From: Phycisphaerales bacterium
Lineage (GTDB): Bacteria; Planctomycetota; Phycisphaerae; Phycisphaerales; UBA1924
Length of the DNA: 41,360 bases
NCBI GenBank assembly: GCA_016742055.1
Contig: JACVCK010000002.1
Location: 1 to 41,360 of the forward strand
Direction: 5' to 3'
Positions 6,690-20,203 of the stretch are shown one piece after another (position 1 is the first letter of the stretch; every line of letters begins with the position of its first letter). The position numbers and the translations under genes were made by a program. The notes under the pieces were generated by a model. The model saw nothing but the letters and a program-made list of their open reading frames with translations, was not told where the DNA came from and ran no database searches.

Positions 6690-8111
6690 ATGGCTTTGCG
6701 AACGATCGCGATCATCAATCAGAAGGGCGGGTGTGGGAAGACCACAACCGCCATCAACCTGGCGGGTGTGTTCGCCTCGCTCGGTCAGCGCGTGCTGCTT
6801 GTGGACCTGGACCCGCAGTCGCACTGCGCTGCGGGCCTGGCGATCCCGGAGCATCGGATCGACCTGCACATCGGCGACGCGATGCTGACGCCGGACGATG
6901 CGCCGCTGGACCTTTCGCGCCTGGTCTGGCGCGTCAGCCGCGGGCTGGACCTGGCGCCCAGCACGATGCGCCTGGCGGGCCTCGAGGCCGCACGCGGTGG
7001 GCTGGCGACGCTGGCGGACCGCGACGAGCGGCTGCAGCGGGCGGTCGCGCGCATCGCGACGGACGAAATCACAGGGGAGCGCCGGTACGACTGGTGCATC
7101 GTGGACTGCCCCCCCACCATCGGGCTCCTGACGTTCAATGCGTTGCGGGCGGCCAGCGAGGCGCTGATCCCGGTGGAGACCTCCTTCTTCTCCCTCAAGG
7201 GCGCGAGCAAGCAGGTGGGCACGATCCGCACCCTGGCGCGCCGGCTGGGTGGATCGACGCCCCATCGCCTGCTCGCCACGATGCACGACCCTGACAGCCC
7301 GCTCGCGCGCACCCTGCTCACCGAACTCGGAGAGCGCTTCGCCGATCGCCTGGTCCCCGTCGTCATCCGGCTCGACCCCAAACTGCGGGAAGCGACCTCG
7401 CTCGGTCAGCCCATCGTCGAACACGCCCCCGACGCCCGCGGCGCCGAGGACTACGGCCGTCTCGCGTCCTGGCTGCTCGACAACCCGCCCGGGCGCACCC
7501 TGGCCGCGGGGCTCCTCGACTCCATCGCGTCCGACGAGCCGCTCGACGGCGAACCGGCGCCCGCGCTTCCGCATGCGCTGCAGCCGGTGGGCGCCCTCGC
7601 CCCGTCGATCCGGCCCGACGACACCGACGCCCCGCCAACCGCCGACGCCGTGGTGACCCGCGCCGCGGAGATGGCCGCACGGGTCCGCCATCTGCTGCAG
7701 CGGAGCGAGAAACTCCAGTCGCGTCTGACGGACGATGAGCAGGTGATCTCTGCGTCGTCGCGGTTCGACGCGCAGGCGACGAGCGAAGACGGCTGGCGTC
7801 CCGGTCCGAACGTGATCGAGGGCGGCGTGCGGTTCGTGATGCCCGGCGCGCCGGGGCTGCACGTCTTCGTCGCCGGTGATTTCAACGGCTGGTCGGCCTC
7901 CGCGACGCCCCTGCGGTACGACCCCATTCGGCGCGTTTACTCCGCGTACCTGCCCATGACGCCTGGGCGCCGCCTCTACCGCGTGGTGGTGAACGGCGTG
8001 TGGCGGGCCGATCCGAACAACCCGGATGTTGAAGAGAACCCGTTCGGCGACCGCAACAGCGTGCTGGTGGTGCGGCCCGTCGCGCCCGGCTCGCTGGCGA
8101 CGCCGGCCTGA
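6690..8111 (+). CDS. ParA/Soj-family ATPase fused to C-terminal glycogen-binding (AMPK-beta/CBM48-like) domain
   Basis: Deviant Walker A INQKGGCGKTTTAINLAG, LLVDLDPQSH, IVDCPPTIG; C-terminus GVRFVMPGAPGLHVFVAGDFNGWSASATPLRYDPIRRVYSAYLPMTPGRRLYRVVVNGVWRADPNNPDVEENPFGDRNSVLVV. Confidence 0.9.
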   Translation: MALRTIAIINQKGGCGKTTTAINLAGVFASLGQRVLLVDLDPQSHCAAGLAIPEHRIDLHIGDAMLTPDDAPLDLSRLVWRVSRGLDLAPSTMRLAGLEAARGGLATLADRDERLQRAVARIATDEITGERRYDWCIVDCPPTIGLLTFNALRAASEALIPVETSFFSLKGASKQVGTIRTLARRLGGSTPHRLLATMHDPDSPLARTLLTELGERFADRLVPVVIRLDPKLREATSLGQPIVEHAPDARGAEDYGRLASWLLDNPPGRTLAAGLLDSIASDEPLDGEPAPALPHALQPVGALAPSIRPDDTDAPPTADAVVTRAAEMAARVRHLLQRSEKLQSRLTDDEQVISASSRFDAQATSEDGWRPGPNVIEGGVRFVMPGAPGLHVFVAGDFNGWSASATPLRYDPIRRVYSAYLPMTPGRRLYRVVVNGVWRADPNNPDVEENPFGDRNSVLVVRPVAPGSLATPA

Positions 8112-8172: not shown

Positions 8173-9471
8173 ATGCGAACCAAGGCGGAAGTGCAGGATG
8201 CCCGGCCCGACCTTCTCGACGACCTCCCCCACGAGGCCGAGTTCGACGCGCTGACCGACTTGTTCCTCGACGATCAGCCCATCGACGCGCCGCCCGCGCG
8301 AACCCACGCGCCGCCCGCCGCCTCTGCGTCCCGATCCGCCGTCAGCGCGGCGCCGCCCGCCGTCGCGGTGGAGGCGCTCATCATGGGCCATCTGCCGACG
8401 CTCGCGGGCGCGTGGGCGGCGGAATACGCGCGCCACGCGTTCCGCGCCTCGGGGCGGCCGGTCGCGCTGCTCCGCGACGCCGCGGAAGGGCGGACGCTGG
8501 AGACCCTGCCCCGCGAGCCGGCGCGCACCGGCCCCGACTCGGGCGCCCCGATGGACCGCGCCCTGGCGCAGTGCGCCGGCCTCTGCCGCGTGATCGTCCG
8601 CGCCGATGAGACGGACGAGCCGGACCTGATCGCCGCGTCCGGCGAGCACGATGTGACGATCCTGACGGGCGCGGACGACGCGGCCATCGTCAGCGCGTAC
8701 CGCACGATCAAGCGGCTGTTCGTGGGGGCCGGAGAGAGGGAGCGTCCCATCGGCGTGGCGGTGATGGGCGCCGACGAGCCCCGGGCGCGCGAGGCGTTCG
8801 AGCGTCTCCGGCGCGCCGCCGAGGCGTTCCTGGGCCTGCGGCTCACGCTCGGCGCCGTTTGCCCACGCCTGAGCCCGGAGCCCTTCACGCTGCGATGGAG
8901 CGGGCCGCGATCGGGACGCGACTACCCCGCGCTCCTCGGCTCGCTGCGTGCGGTGCGGCCGGAACCCGCGCCGAGCCCAATCGGGAAGCAAGGAGCGCCC
9001 CAGTCCCCCCATCGCTCTCCGGCGCCAAGCGCGGAGTCGTGGGAATTCGACGACCTGTTGGCGATGGACGATGGGCCGCTCGCCGCTCCGGCTGCGGACG
9101 TTCAAGCGGCGCGCACTCTGGTGCGGGGCGTCCATGCCGCGGACCTGCGTTGCCCGGTGGCGTCGGACGTGGAGTTGGGGGTGGACGACGCGGGACGGCT
9201 GCACCTGGTGGCGGACGACCGATCCGAGCGACCGATGGAGGGGCTGAGCGCGGCGTGCGAGTGGGCGAGGGAAAACTTCGAGACGCTCGCGCTGGCCGTC
9301 CGCGCCCGCGGGCTTCCCACGCCCCGCGACGCCCACAGGCCCCTGCTTCACGCGCTCACACGCTCGTCGGACCGCGCCAAGCGCATGCTGCGCTGCGGCG
9401 TCCGGGTCCACCTCATCGCCGAGGTGATGGTGGACGGGCGCGTCACGACGGCGTGCGTGGACCTGGACTGA
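8173..9471 (+). CDS. Hypothetical protein, possible Walker-A-less ParA/MinD-like fold
   Basis: 432 aa directly downstream of the ParA fusion; LIMGHLPTLAGAWAAEYARHAFRASGRPVALL sits where a P-loop segment would be; ADDAAIVSAYRTIKRLFVGAG...EAFLGLRLTLGAVCP resembles MinD/FlhG C-terminal segments. Confidence 0.5.
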   Translation: MRTKAEVQDARPDLLDDLPHEAEFDALTDLFLDDQPIDAPPARTHAPPAASASRSAVSAAPPAVAVEALIMGHLPTLAGAWAAEYARHAFRASGRPVALLRDAAEGRTLETLPREPARTGPDSGAPMDRALAQCAGLCRVIVRADETDEPDLIAASGEHDVTILTGADDAAIVSAYRTIKRLFVGAGERERPIGVAVMGADEPRAREAFERLRRAAEAFLGLRLTLGAVCPRLSPEPFTLRWSGPRSGRDYPALLGSLRAVRPEPAPSPIGKQGAPQSPHRSPAPSAESWEFDDLLAMDDGPLAAPAADVQAARTLVRGVHAADLRCPVASDVELGVDDAGRLHLVADDRSERPMEGLSAACEWARENFETLALAVRARGLPTPRDAHRPLLHALTRSSDRAKRMLRCGVRVHLIAEVMVDGRVTTACVDLD

Positions 9472-9480
9472 GGCCGACCT

Positions 9481-12400
9481 TCAGGAAACCCCCGCTCGCT
9501 CGCGTTGACGGCGACCATCGGCGGGGACGGAGGCCGCCACGGGCTTGGGGCCGCTGCGGTCCGCTTCCTTCGCGGCGTCGGTGATGCGCTCGAACGCGCC
9601 GGGGTCCCAGTCCTGACGGAGGATCTTGGCGATCAGCAGCCGGAAGTCGATCGCCATGCTCATGAGCATCGGGCAGAGCACGAGCGTGAAGACGGTCGAG
9701 AAGATGAGCCCCGAGAGCACGACCGATCCCAGGCCCCGATAGAGTTCCGAGCCGGCGCCGGGCGCCACCACGAGCGGCGCCATGCCCAGGACGGAGGTCA
9801 TGGTGGTCATGAGGATGGGCCGGAGGCGGGTTCGGGCGGACTCGACGATGGCTTTGCGGGGCGGCATGCGCTCGACGATGTCCTGCTCGGACTCGCCAAA
9901 GCCGCGCATGAAGTTCAGCGCCTGCGCCACCAGCAGGATCGCGTTGTTCACCACCACGCCGATGAGGATCACGAACCCGAGCATCGTCAGAGTGTCCAAC
10001 TGCTGCGTGGGGTCGAACCAGTGGACGATGCGCAGCCCCGCCATGCCCCCCACCATCGCCAGCGGCACGCTGATCAGGATCACCAGGGGGTAGATGAAAC
10101 TCTCGAACAGCGCGCACATCAGGAGGTAACAGCACAGCAGCGCCAGGAACAGGCGGCTGGTGAGCAGCGCCTTGACTGTGCCGACGAATCCGCCCGACCA
10201 GTCGCCGAGCATCGCGCGTCGGACCTGCGTGAGTTTGTCCGCGGCGCCGGCGAGGTTGGTCTGGATGTCCGGCGCGATGACCCCCGCGGCGCGGAAGGGC
10301 TCGATCATGTCGTTCCGCACCGCGTTCATGGCGGATTCCAGCGGGACGCCCACCGGCGCAGCGATCGTCAGCGTCACGCTGCGCCGGCCCTCGATGCGGT
10401 TGATCTGCTGGGGCGAATCGACGCGCCGGACCTCCGCGATGGAGCCGACGTTGACGGCGCCGGAGGCGGGCGTAGGGATCGGAACGGCCTCGAGTTGGCC
10501 CAGGCCCAGTTCCGGCGCCTGGTAGTCGGCCTGGCGCCGATCGATGACGCGGATGTCGATGTTCTCGCCGCCGAAGCGGTAGTCGTCGATGATCGCGCCG
10601 TCGCCCATGACGCGGATGGCGGTGGCGATGTCCGCGACGGTGACCCCGGCCATGGCGGCGCGGAACGGATCCACCTTGAGTTGGACCTCCTGCGCCGCGA
10701 TGTTGAAGTTGCCCGGGTCGGGGCGCACCGAGTCGAACACGCCCTGGCCGGCGAGTTCGAAGCCCTTGCCCATGAGCGCGCCCGCGGCGCTGCGCACGGC
10801 GGCAAGGTCGTCGCCGGAGATCTCGAGGTCGATCGAGTTGCTGCTGCCGAAGCCGCCGGTCTGAAAGAGGGGCGTCTGGAAAGGGATGGCCCACACGCCC
10901 GGAAGCGCCGCGGGGGATGCGGCGGTCTGCAGGAGCGGGACGAGCGGTCGGACGACGGTCTCGATCTGGCTTGTGGCGCCCATGAACATGCCGCCGCCGA
11001 AGGAGACGAAGAAGAAGTTCTCGATGGGCGGCGGGCGGACCTGCGTGACGGCGCCGGTGGCGTAGTCGAAGGAGTTGACCATGGGGAGCGCGTCGGCCTC
11101 GGGCGTGCCGGCGCGTGCCTCCCAGTAGGGCTGGAGGGTGGACTCGATGCGCTTGCCCAGGTCGATCTGCGTGTCGAGGTTGTAGCCGGGCGGCGGGATG
11201 AGGAACCCGAAGACCAGGTTGCGGTTGCCCGCGGGGAGGTAGGTGGCCGGTGGAGCGAGGACGGCGATGCCCACGAGCGCCGCGATCCCCACGACGCCGA
11301 CCACCGCGAGGCGGATGGCCCATGAGCCCAGGGCGAAGTGCAGCGCGGATGCGAAGAGGTCGCGGAGCCGCGAGAAGAAGGCCACGAGGCGCGTCGCCGG
11401 GCCGCGCCGCGTCCGGCGCGCCGGCGCTTCAAAGCCCTTTCGGAACAGCCGCGCCGCGAAGGGGGGGATGATGATGACGGCGGCGCCGAGCGAGAGCAGC
11501 ACGGCGGCGCAGATCGCCAGGGCGATGTCGCGGAAGAGTTGGCCGACTTCCTCCTGGATGGTGAGGATCGGGATGAAGACGACGACCGTGGTGAGCGTGG
11601 AGACGGCGATGGCGACCCAGACCTCGCCCGCGCCGTTGAGCGCCGCGCGGAGCGCGGGCTCGCCCAGTTGCCGCCGCCGGTAGATGTTCTCAAGGACGAC
11701 GATGGCGTTGTCCACCACCATGCCCACGGCGAACGCCATGCCGGCCAGCGAGATGACGTTGATGTTGCGCCCGAAGGCGGGCAGGACGATGAAGGAGCCG
11801 ATGATGGAGACGGGGATGGTCGCGGCGACGATGAACGTCGCGCGGACCGACCTTAAGAACACCAGGAGGCACGCGATGGCAAGCGCGCCGCCGACGAAGA
11901 TGTTGGACGTGACCAGGTCCAGGGCGTTGTAAATGTAGATGGTCTGGTCGTAGACCATGTCCAGGTGCATCGGCGCGGAGTGGCCGAGCCGGCGAGACTC
12001 CTGATCGAGCATGCCGCCGGGGGCGTTGAGTTCGGCGATCTGGGCCTTGAGGCCCTGCATGACCTGCAGGACGTTGGAGCCGACCTCGCGCTGGGCGTTG
12101 ATCGCGAGCACGGTGGCGCCCTTGGAGCGGACCACGCTCTGGGCCTCGGCGAAGGTCAGTTCGACCTCGGCGATGTCGCGCACGCGGACGGGCGCGCCCT
12201 GGGCGTCGACCGTGACGACGGTGTCGCCGACCAGTCGCGGGTCGTCGAACTTGCCGACCACGCGCAGGCGGATGTCGCGCTTGCCCTCGGGCACCTGGCC
12301 GCCGGAGGCGTCCACGTTCTCGGCCCGCAGGGCGCCGATGAGTTGCCCGTAGGTCACCCCGCGGGCGCTCATCGCGCCCGAGTCCACGCGGACCTGCACC

Positions 12401-12954
12401 TCGCGCTCGCGTCCGCCCAGGATGTTGACGCGGCTGACGCCGGGCACACGCTCGAGGAAGGGCTGGACGCGGTCCTTGTAGAAGTCGTAGGAGTCGCGGA
12501 CGTCGTAGGAGTCGTCCGGGCAGCGGACGATGATCCATGCGATGTAGTCGCGGCTGGCGAAGTCGCCGGCCTCCACGACGGGCTCGTCCACGTTCTCGGG
12601 ATAGTCGGGCACCTCGCGGAGTTTGTCGGAGACCTCGCGGAGGGCCTCGTTCTTGTCGGCGCCGACCTTGAACTCCAGGCGGATCACGCCCTCGTTCTGG
12701 CGCGCGATCGAACTCATCTTGACGAGGTTCGCCACGCCCCGGAGTTTCTCCTCCTGTTCGATGAGGATCTCCGACTCGACCTCGGCGGGGCTGGCCCCGT
12801 CCCAGAACGTGGTGACGGAGACGAACGTCGGCTCGATCTCGGGCGTGAGTTGCACGGGGGCCGATGCGAGCGACATCAGGCCCGCCAGCACGAGCAGCAC
12901 GGCGATCACGACCACGGCGACGGGGCGCTCGACGGCGAAGCGGACGGGGTTCAC
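9481..12954 (-). CDS. RND (HAE1/AcrB-like) efflux transporter permease
   Basis: 1157 aa; MNPVRFAVERPVAVVVIAVLLVLAGLMSL, GMAFAVGMVVDNAIVVLENIYRR, MLGFVILIGVVVNNAILLV. Confidence 0.96.
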   Translation of the reverse strand: MNPVRFAVERPVAVVVIAVLLVLAGLMSLASAPVQLTPEIEPTFVSVTTFWDGASPAEVESEILIEQEEKLRGVANLVKMSSIARQNEGVIRLEFKVGADKNEALREVSDKLREVPDYPENVDEPVVEAGDFASRDYIAWIIVRCPDDSYDVRDSYDFYKDRVQPFLERVPGVSRVNILGGREREVQVRVDSGAMSARGVTYGQLIGALRAENVDASGGQVPEGKRDIRLRVVGKFDDPRLVGDTVVTVDAQGAPVRVRDIAEVELTFAEAQSVVRSKGATVLAINAQREVGSNVLQVMQGLKAQIAELNAPGGMLDQESRRLGHSAPMHLDMVYDQTIYIYNALDLVTSNIFVGGALAIACLLVFLRSVRATFIVAATIPVSIIGSFIVLPAFGRNINVISLAGMAFAVGMVVDNAIVVLENIYRRRQLGEPALRAALNGAGEVWVAIAVSTLTTVVVFIPILTIQEEVGQLFRDIALAICAAVLLSLGAAVIIIPPFAARLFRKGFEAPARRTRRGPATRLVAFFSRLRDLFASALHFALGSWAIRLAVVGVVGIAALVGIAVLAPPATYLPAGNRNLVFGFLIPPPGYNLDTQIDLGKRIESTLQPYWEARAGTPEADALPMVNSFDYATGAVTQVRPPPIENFFFVSFGGGMFMGATSQIETVVRPLVPLLQTAASPAALPGVWAIPFQTPLFQTGGFGSSNSIDLEISGDDLAAVRSAAGALMGKGFELAGQGVFDSVRPDPGNFNIAAQEVQLKVDPFRAAMAGVTVADIATAIRVMGDGAIIDDYRFGGENIDIRVIDRRQADYQAPELGLGQLEAVPIPTPASGAVNVGSIAEVRRVDSPQQINRIEGRRSVTLTIAAPVGVPLESAMNAVRNDMIEPFRAAGVIAPDIQTNLAGAADKLTQVRRAMLGDWSGGFVGTVKALLTSRLFLALLCCYLLMCALFESFIYPLVILISVPLAMVGGMAGLRIVHWFDPTQQLDTLTMLGFVILIGVVVNNAILLVAQALNFMRGFGESEQDIVERMPPRKAIVESARTRLRPILMTTMTSVLGMAPLVVAPGAGSELYRGLGSVVLSGLIFSTVFTLVLCPMLMSMAIDFRLLIAKILRQDWDPGAFERITDAAKEADRSGPKPVAASVPADGRRQRERAGVS

Positions 12955-14180
12955 GGGCGCGCGCCCCCTGCGCGCGGCTCGTCGGCGCCACCGGCCCCTT
13001 CAGCCGGCGGCGAGGCCAGTTCGCTCGCGTTGCTCACCAGCAGCGGCTGGCCGGGGAAGAGGATCCGCTCGTTGCCCTCGACGGCCACGATCGCGCCCGG
13101 AAACAGCGGCCCGCTGATCACGCGGACCGCCGTCTGGGCGTTGAGGATGGTGAACGGCTGCACGCGCGCGGGGATGGCCGCCTCCTTGCCGGGCTCGCCG
13201 GTGACGGTGTAGACGAACCAGCCGGCGTCGTCGCGGAGCATGGCGTCGGAGGGCACCATGAGCGCGGGGGCGGATTCACCCGTGGGCACGCTGGCGTCCA
13301 CGCTCATGCCCGGCAGCAGGCGACGCTGGGGGTTTTCAAGTCGCAGGCGCACGGGGAAGGTCCGCGACGTTTCGCTCCCCAAGGGCACGATGTCCACGTC
13401 GGAGGAGCGGAACAGTTCATTCAGGGCCCGCGCCGTCACCAGCACCGAGGCGCCCGGGGCGCGCAGCGGGTGGATGAAGCGCTCGGGCACGTCGATCCAG
13501 ACCTCGATGGGGTCGATCTGCGAGAGTTCGACGATCGAATCGCCCCGGTCGGCCCACTGGCCGGCCTCGAGCCCGCGCGAGAGCACGAGGCCGTCGAACG
13601 GCGCCTCGATCGTCATGTCTTCGAGGCGCTGGCGCAGGAGCGCCAGGCCCGCCTCGGCGCGCTGGACCTCGGCGGCGGCCTGATCGCGCCGCGCGCGGGC
13701 GGCGTTGGCCGCGGTGCGGGCGTCCAGCAGTTCGTTCTCCGACGCGCTCTGACGCTCGCGGAGGTCCGAGAGCCGCACGAGGTCGCGCTCGGCGCGTTCG
13801 ATGAGCGCGTCGCGCTCGGCGAGCAGCGCGCGGGCGGCGCCGAGCGCCGCCTCGCCCGCCTGCACCTCGGCCCGGAGGATGGCGTCGTCCAGACGCGCGA
13901 CGACCTGGCCCTCGATGACGGCGTCGCCCTCGCGGACGTCGATGCTGACGACGCGTCCGGGCTCACGGGCGGCGAGGGCCGATGTGCGCCACGCGCGGAC
14001 GCGCCCGGTGGTCTCGGCGCGCGGATCGATCGTCTGCATGACCGCCCGCGCCGCGCGCACGTTGGCCGGCGGCGGGCCGCCGCCCTGACGCGCGAGGGCG
14101 TGCGAGCAGAGGATCGCGCCGGCGATCGCGGGGAGGATGCGGGCGGCGCGGCACGTCTGGAGGGAAGGTGTCCCGAGCAT
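12951..14180 (-). CDS. RND efflux periplasmic adaptor (membrane fusion protein)
   Basis: 409 aa; GRVVSIDVREGDAVIEGQVVARLDD lipoyl half-motif, long coiled coil, IEAPFDGLVLSRGLEAGQWADRGDSIVELSQI; 4-nt overlap with the pump gene. Confidence 0.93.
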   Translation of the reverse strand: MLGTPSLQTCRAARILPAIAGAILCSHALARQGGGPPPANVRAARAVMQTIDPRAETTGRVRAWRTSALAAREPGRVVSIDVREGDAVIEGQVVARLDDAILRAEVQAGEAALGAARALLAERDALIERAERDLVRLSDLRERQSASENELLDARTAANAARARRDQAAAEVQRAEAGLALLRQRLEDMTIEAPFDGLVLSRGLEAGQWADRGDSIVELSQIDPIEVWIDVPERFIHPLRAPGASVLVTARALNELFRSSDVDIVPLGSETSRTFPVRLRLENPQRRLLPGMSVDASVPTGESAPALMVPSDAMLRDDAGWFVYTVTGEPGKEAAIPARVQPFTILNAQTAVRVISGPLFPGAIVAVEGNERILFPGQPLLVSNASELASPPAEGAGGADEPRAGGARP

Positions 14181-17833: not shown

Positions 17834-20203
17834 ATGCACCAGCCCCGCCCCCTGTCCGTCGCCCCCTCCGCCCTGCGGCTCCTGGCTCTCGCCGGAGTCG
17901 CCTGCTCGGCATTGGCAGCCCCTGTTGACCTGACCCCCAACCTCAACGCCCTGCGCGCGTTCGAGGACGTCGCCGGCCCGGCCGGCCCGGCCGACGCCAC
18001 GGCGCTGTTCCTCCGCGCCGGCGTCGTGCAGACCGACATCAGCCCGGCGCGCCTGAGCAGCCTGCTGATGCTTGAGCCCGAGCGCGACCAGAGCGCCGGA
18101 CGCATGGTGATCCAGTTGGACGGGCCGATGACGGCCGAGCGGCGCGCCGCGCTGGAGAACGCGGGCGTGAGCATCGGCGACTACCTGCCGGTGAACGCGT
18201 TCATCGTGACGCTCAACCCCCGCGCCGGCGCCGGCGCGCTCGACGCGCTGCACTTCGTCCGCTTCGCGTCGCCGTTCCAGGCGTCGTGGAAGATCGACCC
18301 CGAGATCGGCACGTTCCCGATGCACAAGCCCGAGCGGGTGGCGATCGCGGCCGAGGGCAAGGTCCTGGTGACGGCGTACCTCTTCAATGGCGAGGCCGCG
18401 GGCCCCGCGCTGGACGCCATCCGCGCCATCGACGGCGTGCAGGCCGAGGCGATCGGCGAACTGGGCGGCAACGAGACGATCAGCGTGGTGGCGCCGATGG
18501 GCGCAATCCAGCAGATCGCCGAGATCGGCGCCGTGCAGTTCATCGAGGAGGCGCCCGAGGTGTTCGAGCGCAACAACACGGTGCGCGCGATCGTGCAGAG
18601 CGGCACGACGACCCTCACCCCCCTCTACAACAACGGCCTGACCGGCGTGGGCCAGATCGTCGGCCACATCGACAGCGCCATCCAGCGCCTGCACTGCTCC
18701 TTCGCCGACGCGACCGTGGGCAACGTGCCCGGCCCCGCCCACCGCAAGATTCTGGCGTACAACCAGGCCTTCGGCGCCGCGAGCCACGGCAGCCACACCG
18801 CCGGCACCATCGCCGGCGACGGCGGTTCGTTCAGCGACACGCGGGGCGTGGCGTACGACGCGAAGATCGTGCACCACGGCATCCCGAGCGACTCGTCCAC
18901 GGGCACGACGTTCAAGTCTCGCCTGGACCTGCATCACAGCCAGGGCGCCCGCGTCCACACCAACTCCTGGGGCGCGGACGGCACGACGCAGTACAACGGC
19001 TGGACGCGCGCGACGGACCTGTTCTCCCGTGAGAAGGAGGACTCGATGGTCGCCTTCGCGATTACGAACCAGTCGCAACTCTTCACCCCCGAGAACGCCA
19101 AGAACGGCCTGGCCGTCGGCGCGTCGCAGGACAACGCCAACATCAACTCCTTCTGCTCCGGCGGCACCGGCCCGACCTCGGACGGGCGCTTCAAGCCCGA
19201 GATCTACAGCCCCGGCTGCTCCATCACCTCCGCCACCACCAGCACCTCGTGCACGGTGACCTCGAGCACCGGCACCTCGATGGCGTGCCCGTCCGTCACC
19301 GGCACGGCTTCCCTCGTGCGGCAGTACTACACCGACGGCTACTACCCCACCGGCGTCGCGGGCGCCAACCCCTCGATCAATCCCTCCGGCGCGCTGATCC
19401 GCGCGACGATCCTCAACGCCGGTCAGGACATGACCGCCGTCTCCGCCGCGTCCACCATCGGCGGCGCGGGCACGGTCGCCTATCCCAACAACCGCGAGGG
19501 ATGGGGCCGCCTGGTCGCCGACGCCTCGCTGGCCTTCCCCAGCGACGCCCGACGCATGGTCGTCCGCGACTTCTGGAGCGGCCAGGCCGGCAGCCCGGCC
19601 GCCGGCTCGCTGACCACCGGACAGGTCTACGAACTGGAGTTCGATGTGAACTCCTCCGCGCAGCAACTCCGCGTCACGATGACCTTCACGGACTTGGCGG
19701 CGTCGATCGGCGCCTCCTTCGCCCCCATCAACAACATCGACCTTGAGGTCGTCACCCCCTCCGGCGCCGTCTATCTCGGCAACCGCTTCACCGGCGGCGT
19801 GTCGATCACCGGCGGGCCGGCGGACGCCATCAACTCCACCGAGCAGGTGCACCTCAACAACCCCGAGGTCGGCACGTGGAAAGCCCGCGTCAAGGGCACG
19901 GCCGTGAACCAGCAGACGCAGGGCTTCGCCCTCGTCATCACCGGCGACGTGGACGACCAGATCACCGTCCCCTGCCCCGGCGACTTTGACGGCGACCTCG
20001 CCGTCGGCTTCTCCGACCTCAACATCCTCCTGGGCAACTACAACCAGACCGGCGCCAACCTCCCCGGCGACCTCGACATGGACGGCGACGTGGACTTCGC
20101 CGACCTCAACGCCTTCCTCGCCCTCTACAACCTGCCCTGCGGCGGCGCCGCCCGAGCGGCCCGCGTCAGCACGGTCAACGGCCTGGATCGCCTCGGCCAC
20201 TGA
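17834..20203 (+). CDS. Secreted subtilisin-like (S8) serine protease with C-terminal dockerin-like domain
   Basis: Signal peptide MHQPRPLSVAPSALRLLALAGVACSALA; triad contexts VGHIDSAI, SHGSHTAGTIAG, GTSMACPSVTG; C-terminus PCPGDFDGDLAVGFSDLNILL...PGDLDMDGDVDFADLNAFLALYN. Confidence 0.93.
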   Translation: MHQPRPLSVAPSALRLLALAGVACSALAAPVDLTPNLNALRAFEDVAGPAGPADATALFLRAGVVQTDISPARLSSLLMLEPERDQSAGRMVIQLDGPMTAERRAALENAGVSIGDYLPVNAFIVTLNPRAGAGALDALHFVRFASPFQASWKIDPEIGTFPMHKPERVAIAAEGKVLVTAYLFNGEAAGPALDAIRAIDGVQAEAIGELGGNETISVVAPMGAIQQIAEIGAVQFIEEAPEVFERNNTVRAIVQSGTTTLTPLYNNGLTGVGQIVGHIDSAIQRLHCSFADATVGNVPGPAHRKILAYNQAFGAASHGSHTAGTIAGDGGSFSDTRGVAYDAKIVHHGIPSDSSTGTTFKSRLDLHHSQGARVHTNSWGADGTTQYNGWTRATDLFSREKEDSMVAFAITNQSQLFTPENAKNGLAVGASQDNANINSFCSGGTGPTSDGRFKPEIYSPGCSITSATTSTSCTVTSSTGTSMACPSVTGTASLVRQYYTDGYYPTGVAGANPSINPSGALIRATILNAGQDMTAVSAASTIGGAGTVAYPNNREGWGRLVADASLAFPSDARRMVVRDFWSGQAGSPAAGSLTTGQVYELEFDVNSSAQQLRVTMTFTDLAASIGASFAPINNIDLEVVTPSGAVYLGNRFTGGVSITGGPADAINSTEQVHLNNPEVGTWKARVKGTAVNQQTQGFALVITGDVDDQITVPCPGDFDGDLAVGFSDLNILLGNYNQTGANLPGDLDMDGDVDFADLNAFLALYNLPCGGAARAARVSTVNGLDRLGH

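Follow-up and report, generated by a model that had tools for sequence, protein, structure and literature searches.

Which cargo is served by an ATPase of the ParA family that carries its own carbohydrate-binding module (CBM)? Bacteria can have several ParA/MinD ATPases that are each dedicated to one cargo, and a 2023 study describes numerous orphan ATPases for which no partner is known (PMC10241942). Organelle positioning was reviewed in 2025 for carboxysomes, magnetosomes, PHB and polyphosphate, with no mention of glycogen (PMC13052382). Glycogen breakdown is predicted in a genomic survey of Phycisphaerae whose text lacks the words storage and MinD, and ParA as a protein name (PMC11266412); GT3 synthase sequences of PVC bacteria are already known (PMC11046441). 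We found no description of a ParA–CBM fusion in the open-licence PMC literature, an absence that is not in itself proof of novelty. We analysed such a fusion in a 41,360-nucleotide stretch of a Phycisphaerales genome (the window), and propose, with a probability of roughly 40%, that it belongs to a Phycisphaerae ParA-type organiser of α-glucan (glycogen) particles that has its own CBM and a pseudo-ATPase cofactor.

A ParA–CBM fusion is widespread in Phycisphaerae

The fusion is encoded at 6690–8111 (plus strand) by a single open frame of 473 residues without internal stops, its extent being backed by Pfam, an AlphaFold model and full-length relatives. On the same strand, this frame comprises a ParA/Soj-type ATPase domain (6699–7481; residues 4–264) with the deviant Walker A motif KGGCGKTT, a variable linker (7482–7853; residues 265–388) delimited by alignment and the AlphaFold model, and an AMPK1_CBM domain (7854–8075; residues 389–462) defined by Pfam, PDB alignment and relatives. 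An earlier note, made by reading the DNA, had described this layout, and the AlphaFold model (mean pLDDT 86.6) agrees with it, predicting two good domains (ATPase and CBM mostly >90) joined by a poorly predicted, helix-bearing linker. Within the linker, residues 287–321 have pLDDT values below 50, helices are predicted at residues 324–348 and 350–363 (7659–7778), and residues 372–388 are modelled as the start of the CBM β-structure.

Scanning bacterial and archaeal genomes yielded at least 80 relatives, nearly all from Phycisphaerae, from Planctomycetota or from uncultured organisms, and most of those listed share the architecture. Among the matches listed, five relatives have no CBM (L036, L038, L065, L071 and L077) and two are short or reach a contig end (L031 and L055). 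AMPK1_CBM was matched in 277 of 297 Phycisphaerae genomes, some of these matches lying in other proteins. We conclude that full-length fusion relatives are widespread in Phycisphaerae. The repeated occurrence of the fusion in the class is not explained by chance or by an assembly error, and it rules out the assembly or frameshift artefact that the earlier note had named as a possible refutation. Two relatives carry labels from outside the group, L038 (Cyanobacteria) and L057 (Limnohabitans), and possibly come from misbinned metagenome-assembled genomes.

The ATPase is distinct from the canonical ParA

Pfam AAA_31 matched residues 4–185 with 127.5 bits (cut-off 27), and the N-terminal part retrieved ParA/Soj chains from PDB sequences with a best E value of 2e-36. 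Foldseek comparison of the fusion model with the PDB likewise returned Soj/ParA, and also matched McdA. These matches uphold the earlier assignment of a ParA ATPase with a canonical deviant Walker A motif. All aligned rows but one, which is gapped there, have K12, K17 and T18 (137/138), and the Walker A′ and Walker B aspartates (D39, D41 and D139) are invariant (138/138). Of the positions in the presumed DNA-binding loop, 233 carries Lys or Arg in all 138 rows; 231, aligned with a Soj Arg, carries Lys in 67. With its catalytic residues intact, the ATPase would be expected to dimerise on ATP and to cycle like other ParAs.

Since Soj is closest in both sequence and fold, the fusion might simply be a chromosomal or plasmid partition ParA. 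We regard this as highly improbable: the protein scores 94.1 bits against the equivalog model of partition ParA, for which the cut-off is 180; ParB was not found among the conserved neighbours of the fusion loci; and the same genome holds a separate canonical ParA on another contig (C83), with a stronger match (177 bits versus 130 for the fusion). The genome also encodes FlhG beside FlhF on contig C8, an identification made by reading the frames, and contig C171 holds one further weak match. The presence of a separate ParA and FlhG indicates that the fusion is a distinct additional paralogue.

Conserved neighbours of the fusion include aroB, upstream in 40 loci (named from a representative sequence and Pfam), and clpX, nearby in 19 loci (named from reading a representative sequence). 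Elsewhere in the window, the region 9481–14180 holds a minus-strand gene for an AcrB-type efflux pump (Pfam ACR_tran) and, upstream of that gene, a frame whose sequence, on reading, resembles a membrane-fusion protein. From reading alone, the frame at 17834–20203 resembles a secreted subtilisin-type protease with a dockerin-like repeat at its C-terminus.

A conserved pseudo-ATPase partner lies downstream of the fusion

The earlier note reported that no ParB adjoins the ATPase. This is correct as far as ParB goes, but a conserved partner of another kind, which the note had missed, lies directly downstream. Clustering of neighbours placed one family directly 3′ of the fusion in 53 loci, the window's member being a 432-residue frame at 8173–9471 (plus strand) with a MinD/FlhG-like fold and a degenerate P-loop. 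Across 142 loci with the fusion or its CBM-less form, some genomes being represented twice, the partner is directly downstream on the same strand in 114 and was not found in 26, some of which end at a contig or stretch boundary. The partner-distance screen set two loci apart (L054 and L105), likely only because open frames reach far upstream, and in L148 and L150 the partner lies beyond the examined stretch. Four further loci have divergent partner copies that start 6–11 bp downstream. Counted by genome, the partner is present in 71 of 73 members of the order. In genome G219 (loci L146 and L148), fusion and partner are about 8 kb apart on opposite strands.

The partner begins with a conserved helix motif of the [FY]DALxDLFLG type (8233–8277, plus strand; residues 21–35), followed on the same strand by a MinD/FlhG-like domain (8356–8958; residues 62–262) and a C-terminal α/β domain (9109–9468; residues 313–432). 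Pfam gave no match to the protein, and profile and Pfam searches found no known relative of the C-terminal domain. The partner profile matched FlhG and FleN over the region that follows the P-loop (FlhG 4rz2, E = 4.6e-4), and Foldseek with the AlphaFold model (pLDDT 82.3) returned FlhG (E = 2.9e-6). A Walker A motif was not found in the partner family, and GHLPxxxxxW occupies its position. Judged by profile and predicted fold, the central domain is a MinD/FlhG-like pseudo-ATPase with a degenerate P-loop. The first 30 residues are acidic, with a median net charge of −3 across 53 partners, some of which are positive; the known partners of ParA proteins present a basic N-terminal peptide (PMC10241942; PMC12204374).

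The proteins structurally closest to the partner, FlhG and FleN (the latter also in FleN–FleQ complexes), raise the possibility of a glucan-state sensor. The CBM would then inform the ATPase of how much glycogen there is, and the partner would relay this to transcription, division or motility, as FleN acts on FleQ, without any movement of glycogen. A CBM of the same type sits within a regulatory kinase in AMPK β. Sensing would also fit the retention of the partner in lineages whose ATPase has no CBM, and the finding that glycogen genes are not among the recognised conserved neighbours of the fusion and its partner. However, no regulator gene was seen among the conserved neighbours either, and the ATPase retains all of its catalytic residues, as do the ParAs that position cargo. 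We consider a sensor possible but rather unlikely.

The C-terminal domain resembles the AMPK β CBM

AMPK1_CBM matched residues 389–462 with 32.6 bits, above the curated Pfam cut-off of 26.8; CBM_48 scored 19.6 bits, under its cut-off of 22.4. The C-terminal part alone retrieved AMPK β CBM chains from PDB sequences with an E value of about 1e-5. A few kelch-type PDB entries also matched it, and in the two such alignments inspected the score came from adding up several weak matches to repeats rather than from one alignment. The Pfam match and the aligned AMPK β chains confirm the AMPK-β-type module that had been read from the DNA. In animals, a domain of this kind holds onto glycogen. W401, R431, W438 and N456 align with residues that we take to be W100, K126, W133 and N150 of AMPK-β1, with the corresponding roles. 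They are held in 116, 111, 100 and 96 of 138 aligned rows, respectively, so that the carbohydrate-binding residues, whose absence the earlier note had named as a possible refutation, are mostly kept, with Arg in place of the AMPK β Lys in nearly all members. From the fold and these retained residues, the CBM would be predicted to tie the ATPase to glycogen.

The same residues admit another explanation, namely that the CBM has given up glucan binding and become a protein–protein interaction module, so that the ATPase positions a protein cargo. The near-universal change from Lys to Arg would suit such a module, as would the loss of W438 or of the entire CBM in several lineages that keep both ATPase and partner. 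Against this, both binding-site Trp residues are retained in most members class-wide. The distribution of glycogen synthases also bears on the question, in both directions.

Intact CBMs are associated with glycogen synthase

Within the order, 40 of 76 genomes have a detected GT3 glycogen synthase; for the class Phycisphaerae the count is 117 of 297. The enzyme is absent from the searched genomes of families f4 and f5. The GT5 synthase is hardly present in the order, with one strong match, and the GlgE route was found in 3 of 76 genomes. α-Glucan phosphorylase is encoded by 62 of 76; GlgB was matched in 42 of 76 and exceeded the cut-off in 12, which is not informative. GT3, GT5 and GlgE were not found in the window's own genome, which is 70% complete. 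The GT3 enzyme, the eukaryote-type synthase, is thus common in the class while the window's order has almost no GT5 enzyme (GlgA), and we rejected a link to classical GlgA for that reason. Frames of about 1,840–1,920 residues with GT5-profile matches occur in G090, G072, G172, G027, G217 and others, mostly of family f19, and are possibly large glycosyltransferase fusions.

We fetched 58 fusion regions from the order and scored 57, counting GT3, a strong GT5 match or GlgE as a synthase route. Genomes that keep both CBM Trp residues had a detected route in 30 cases and none in 6, whereas those that have lost the CBM or its Trp had a route in 0 cases and none in 21. After addition of G219, G038 and G063, the counts became 31 and 6 for kept, and 2 and 21 for lost; of the 23 losses in the order, 21 thus concern genomes in which no glycogen synthase was detected. 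A plain Fisher test of CBM against synthase gives P = 1.4e-10, treating as unrelated genomes that are related. On the tree, three changes in CBM state and four in GT3 are required, and the two to three independent CBM/synthase pairs all run in the same direction or are neutral, a number with which significance is out of reach.

Individual genomes fall on both sides. G219 combines GT3 with an intact CBM. In family f4, both Trp residues are kept in two genomes only, one of which, G122, is also the sole member with a strong GT5 match. The exceptions are the six genomes that keep both Trp yet have no GT3, strong GT5 or GlgE, and conversely G038 and G063, in which GT3 is present and the CBM is degraded or missing; no partner was detected in either. 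Glucan phosphorylase is retained by most f4 genomes in which the CBM has been lost. Most searched f8 genomes have GT3 and match the fusion profile only at the level of canonical ParA, which indicates that the fusion is not needed for glycogen synthesis.

Within the order, then, an intact CBM is associated with glycogen synthase, an association that is suggestive and not proof. Intact CBMs in genomes without a detected synthase would be accommodated by a protein-binding module, but the concentration of losses in synthase-negative genomes speaks against it, and we consider that module quite improbable. The earlier proposal that the ATPase positions glycogen or senses its state is compatible with the data and draws limited support from this co-distribution, given two to three independent changes and exceptions on both sides.

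A proposed model for glycogen positioning

The organiser of glycogen particles that we favour builds on the observed domain architecture, its conservation, the gene pairing and the degenerate P-loop of the partner, from which we infer ATPase cycling, glucan binding, an interaction between the two proteins and localisation. The fusion would be a dedicated spatial-organisation ATPase of the ParA/MinD family whose cargo is α-glucan (glycogen) particles. ATP would drive it to form a dimer, followed by ParA-type cycling, while its C-terminal CBM holds glycogen. In most lineages, the FlhG-like pseudo-ATPase would serve as cofactor or adaptor, perhaps through a mixed dimer or through control of ATP turnover, and the system would thereby govern where glycogen bodies lie, how they are spaced or how they are inherited. 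Several observations weigh against this model: the small number of independent changes behind the co-distribution and its exceptions, conserved neighbours that include no recognised glycogen gene, the failure to detect a synthase in the window's own genome, the phosphorylase kept by most f4 genomes that lost the CBM, and the acidic N-terminus of the partner. A more specific version is that glycogen replaces the nucleoid or membrane, by way of the ATPase's own cargo- or matrix-binding domain, and that the dead FlhG-like protein replaces the basic-peptide adaptor; we find this doubtful.

If correct, the model would provide a concrete gene pair with which to ask whether bacteria place glycogen and share it at division, and the known ParA-type systems would be joined by one whose cargo binder sits inside the ATPase and whose partner is a pseudo-ATPase. 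The fusion and its partner suggest a possible way for bacteria to position or monitor stored sugar.

Comparison with known systems

The fusion shares with ParA/Soj of ParABS systems the fold, the deviant Walker A motif with its signature Lys and the catalytic Asp; it differs in having a C-terminal CBM and no ParB neighbour, and in being separate from the canonical ParA. Its CBM resembles that of AMPK β (CBM48-type), the domain scoring above the Pfam cut-off with Trp, a basic residue, Trp and Asn aligned, but the basic residue is Arg instead of Lys and the module is fused to a ParA ATPase rather than placed in a kinase subunit. The central domain of the partner has the fold of FlhG/FleN, whereas the protein has no Walker A motif, bears an extra N-terminal motif and C-terminal domain, and occurs in a genome with a real FlhG elsewhere. 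The general plan, a ParA-type ATPase and a partner for a non-DNA cargo, is that of McdA/McdB (PMC12204374; PMC13052382). In the fusion, however, the putative cargo binder is part of the ATPase itself, and its partner resembles FlhG, is folded and has an acidic N-terminus, whereas the McdB-type adaptor is mostly disordered and has a basic one.
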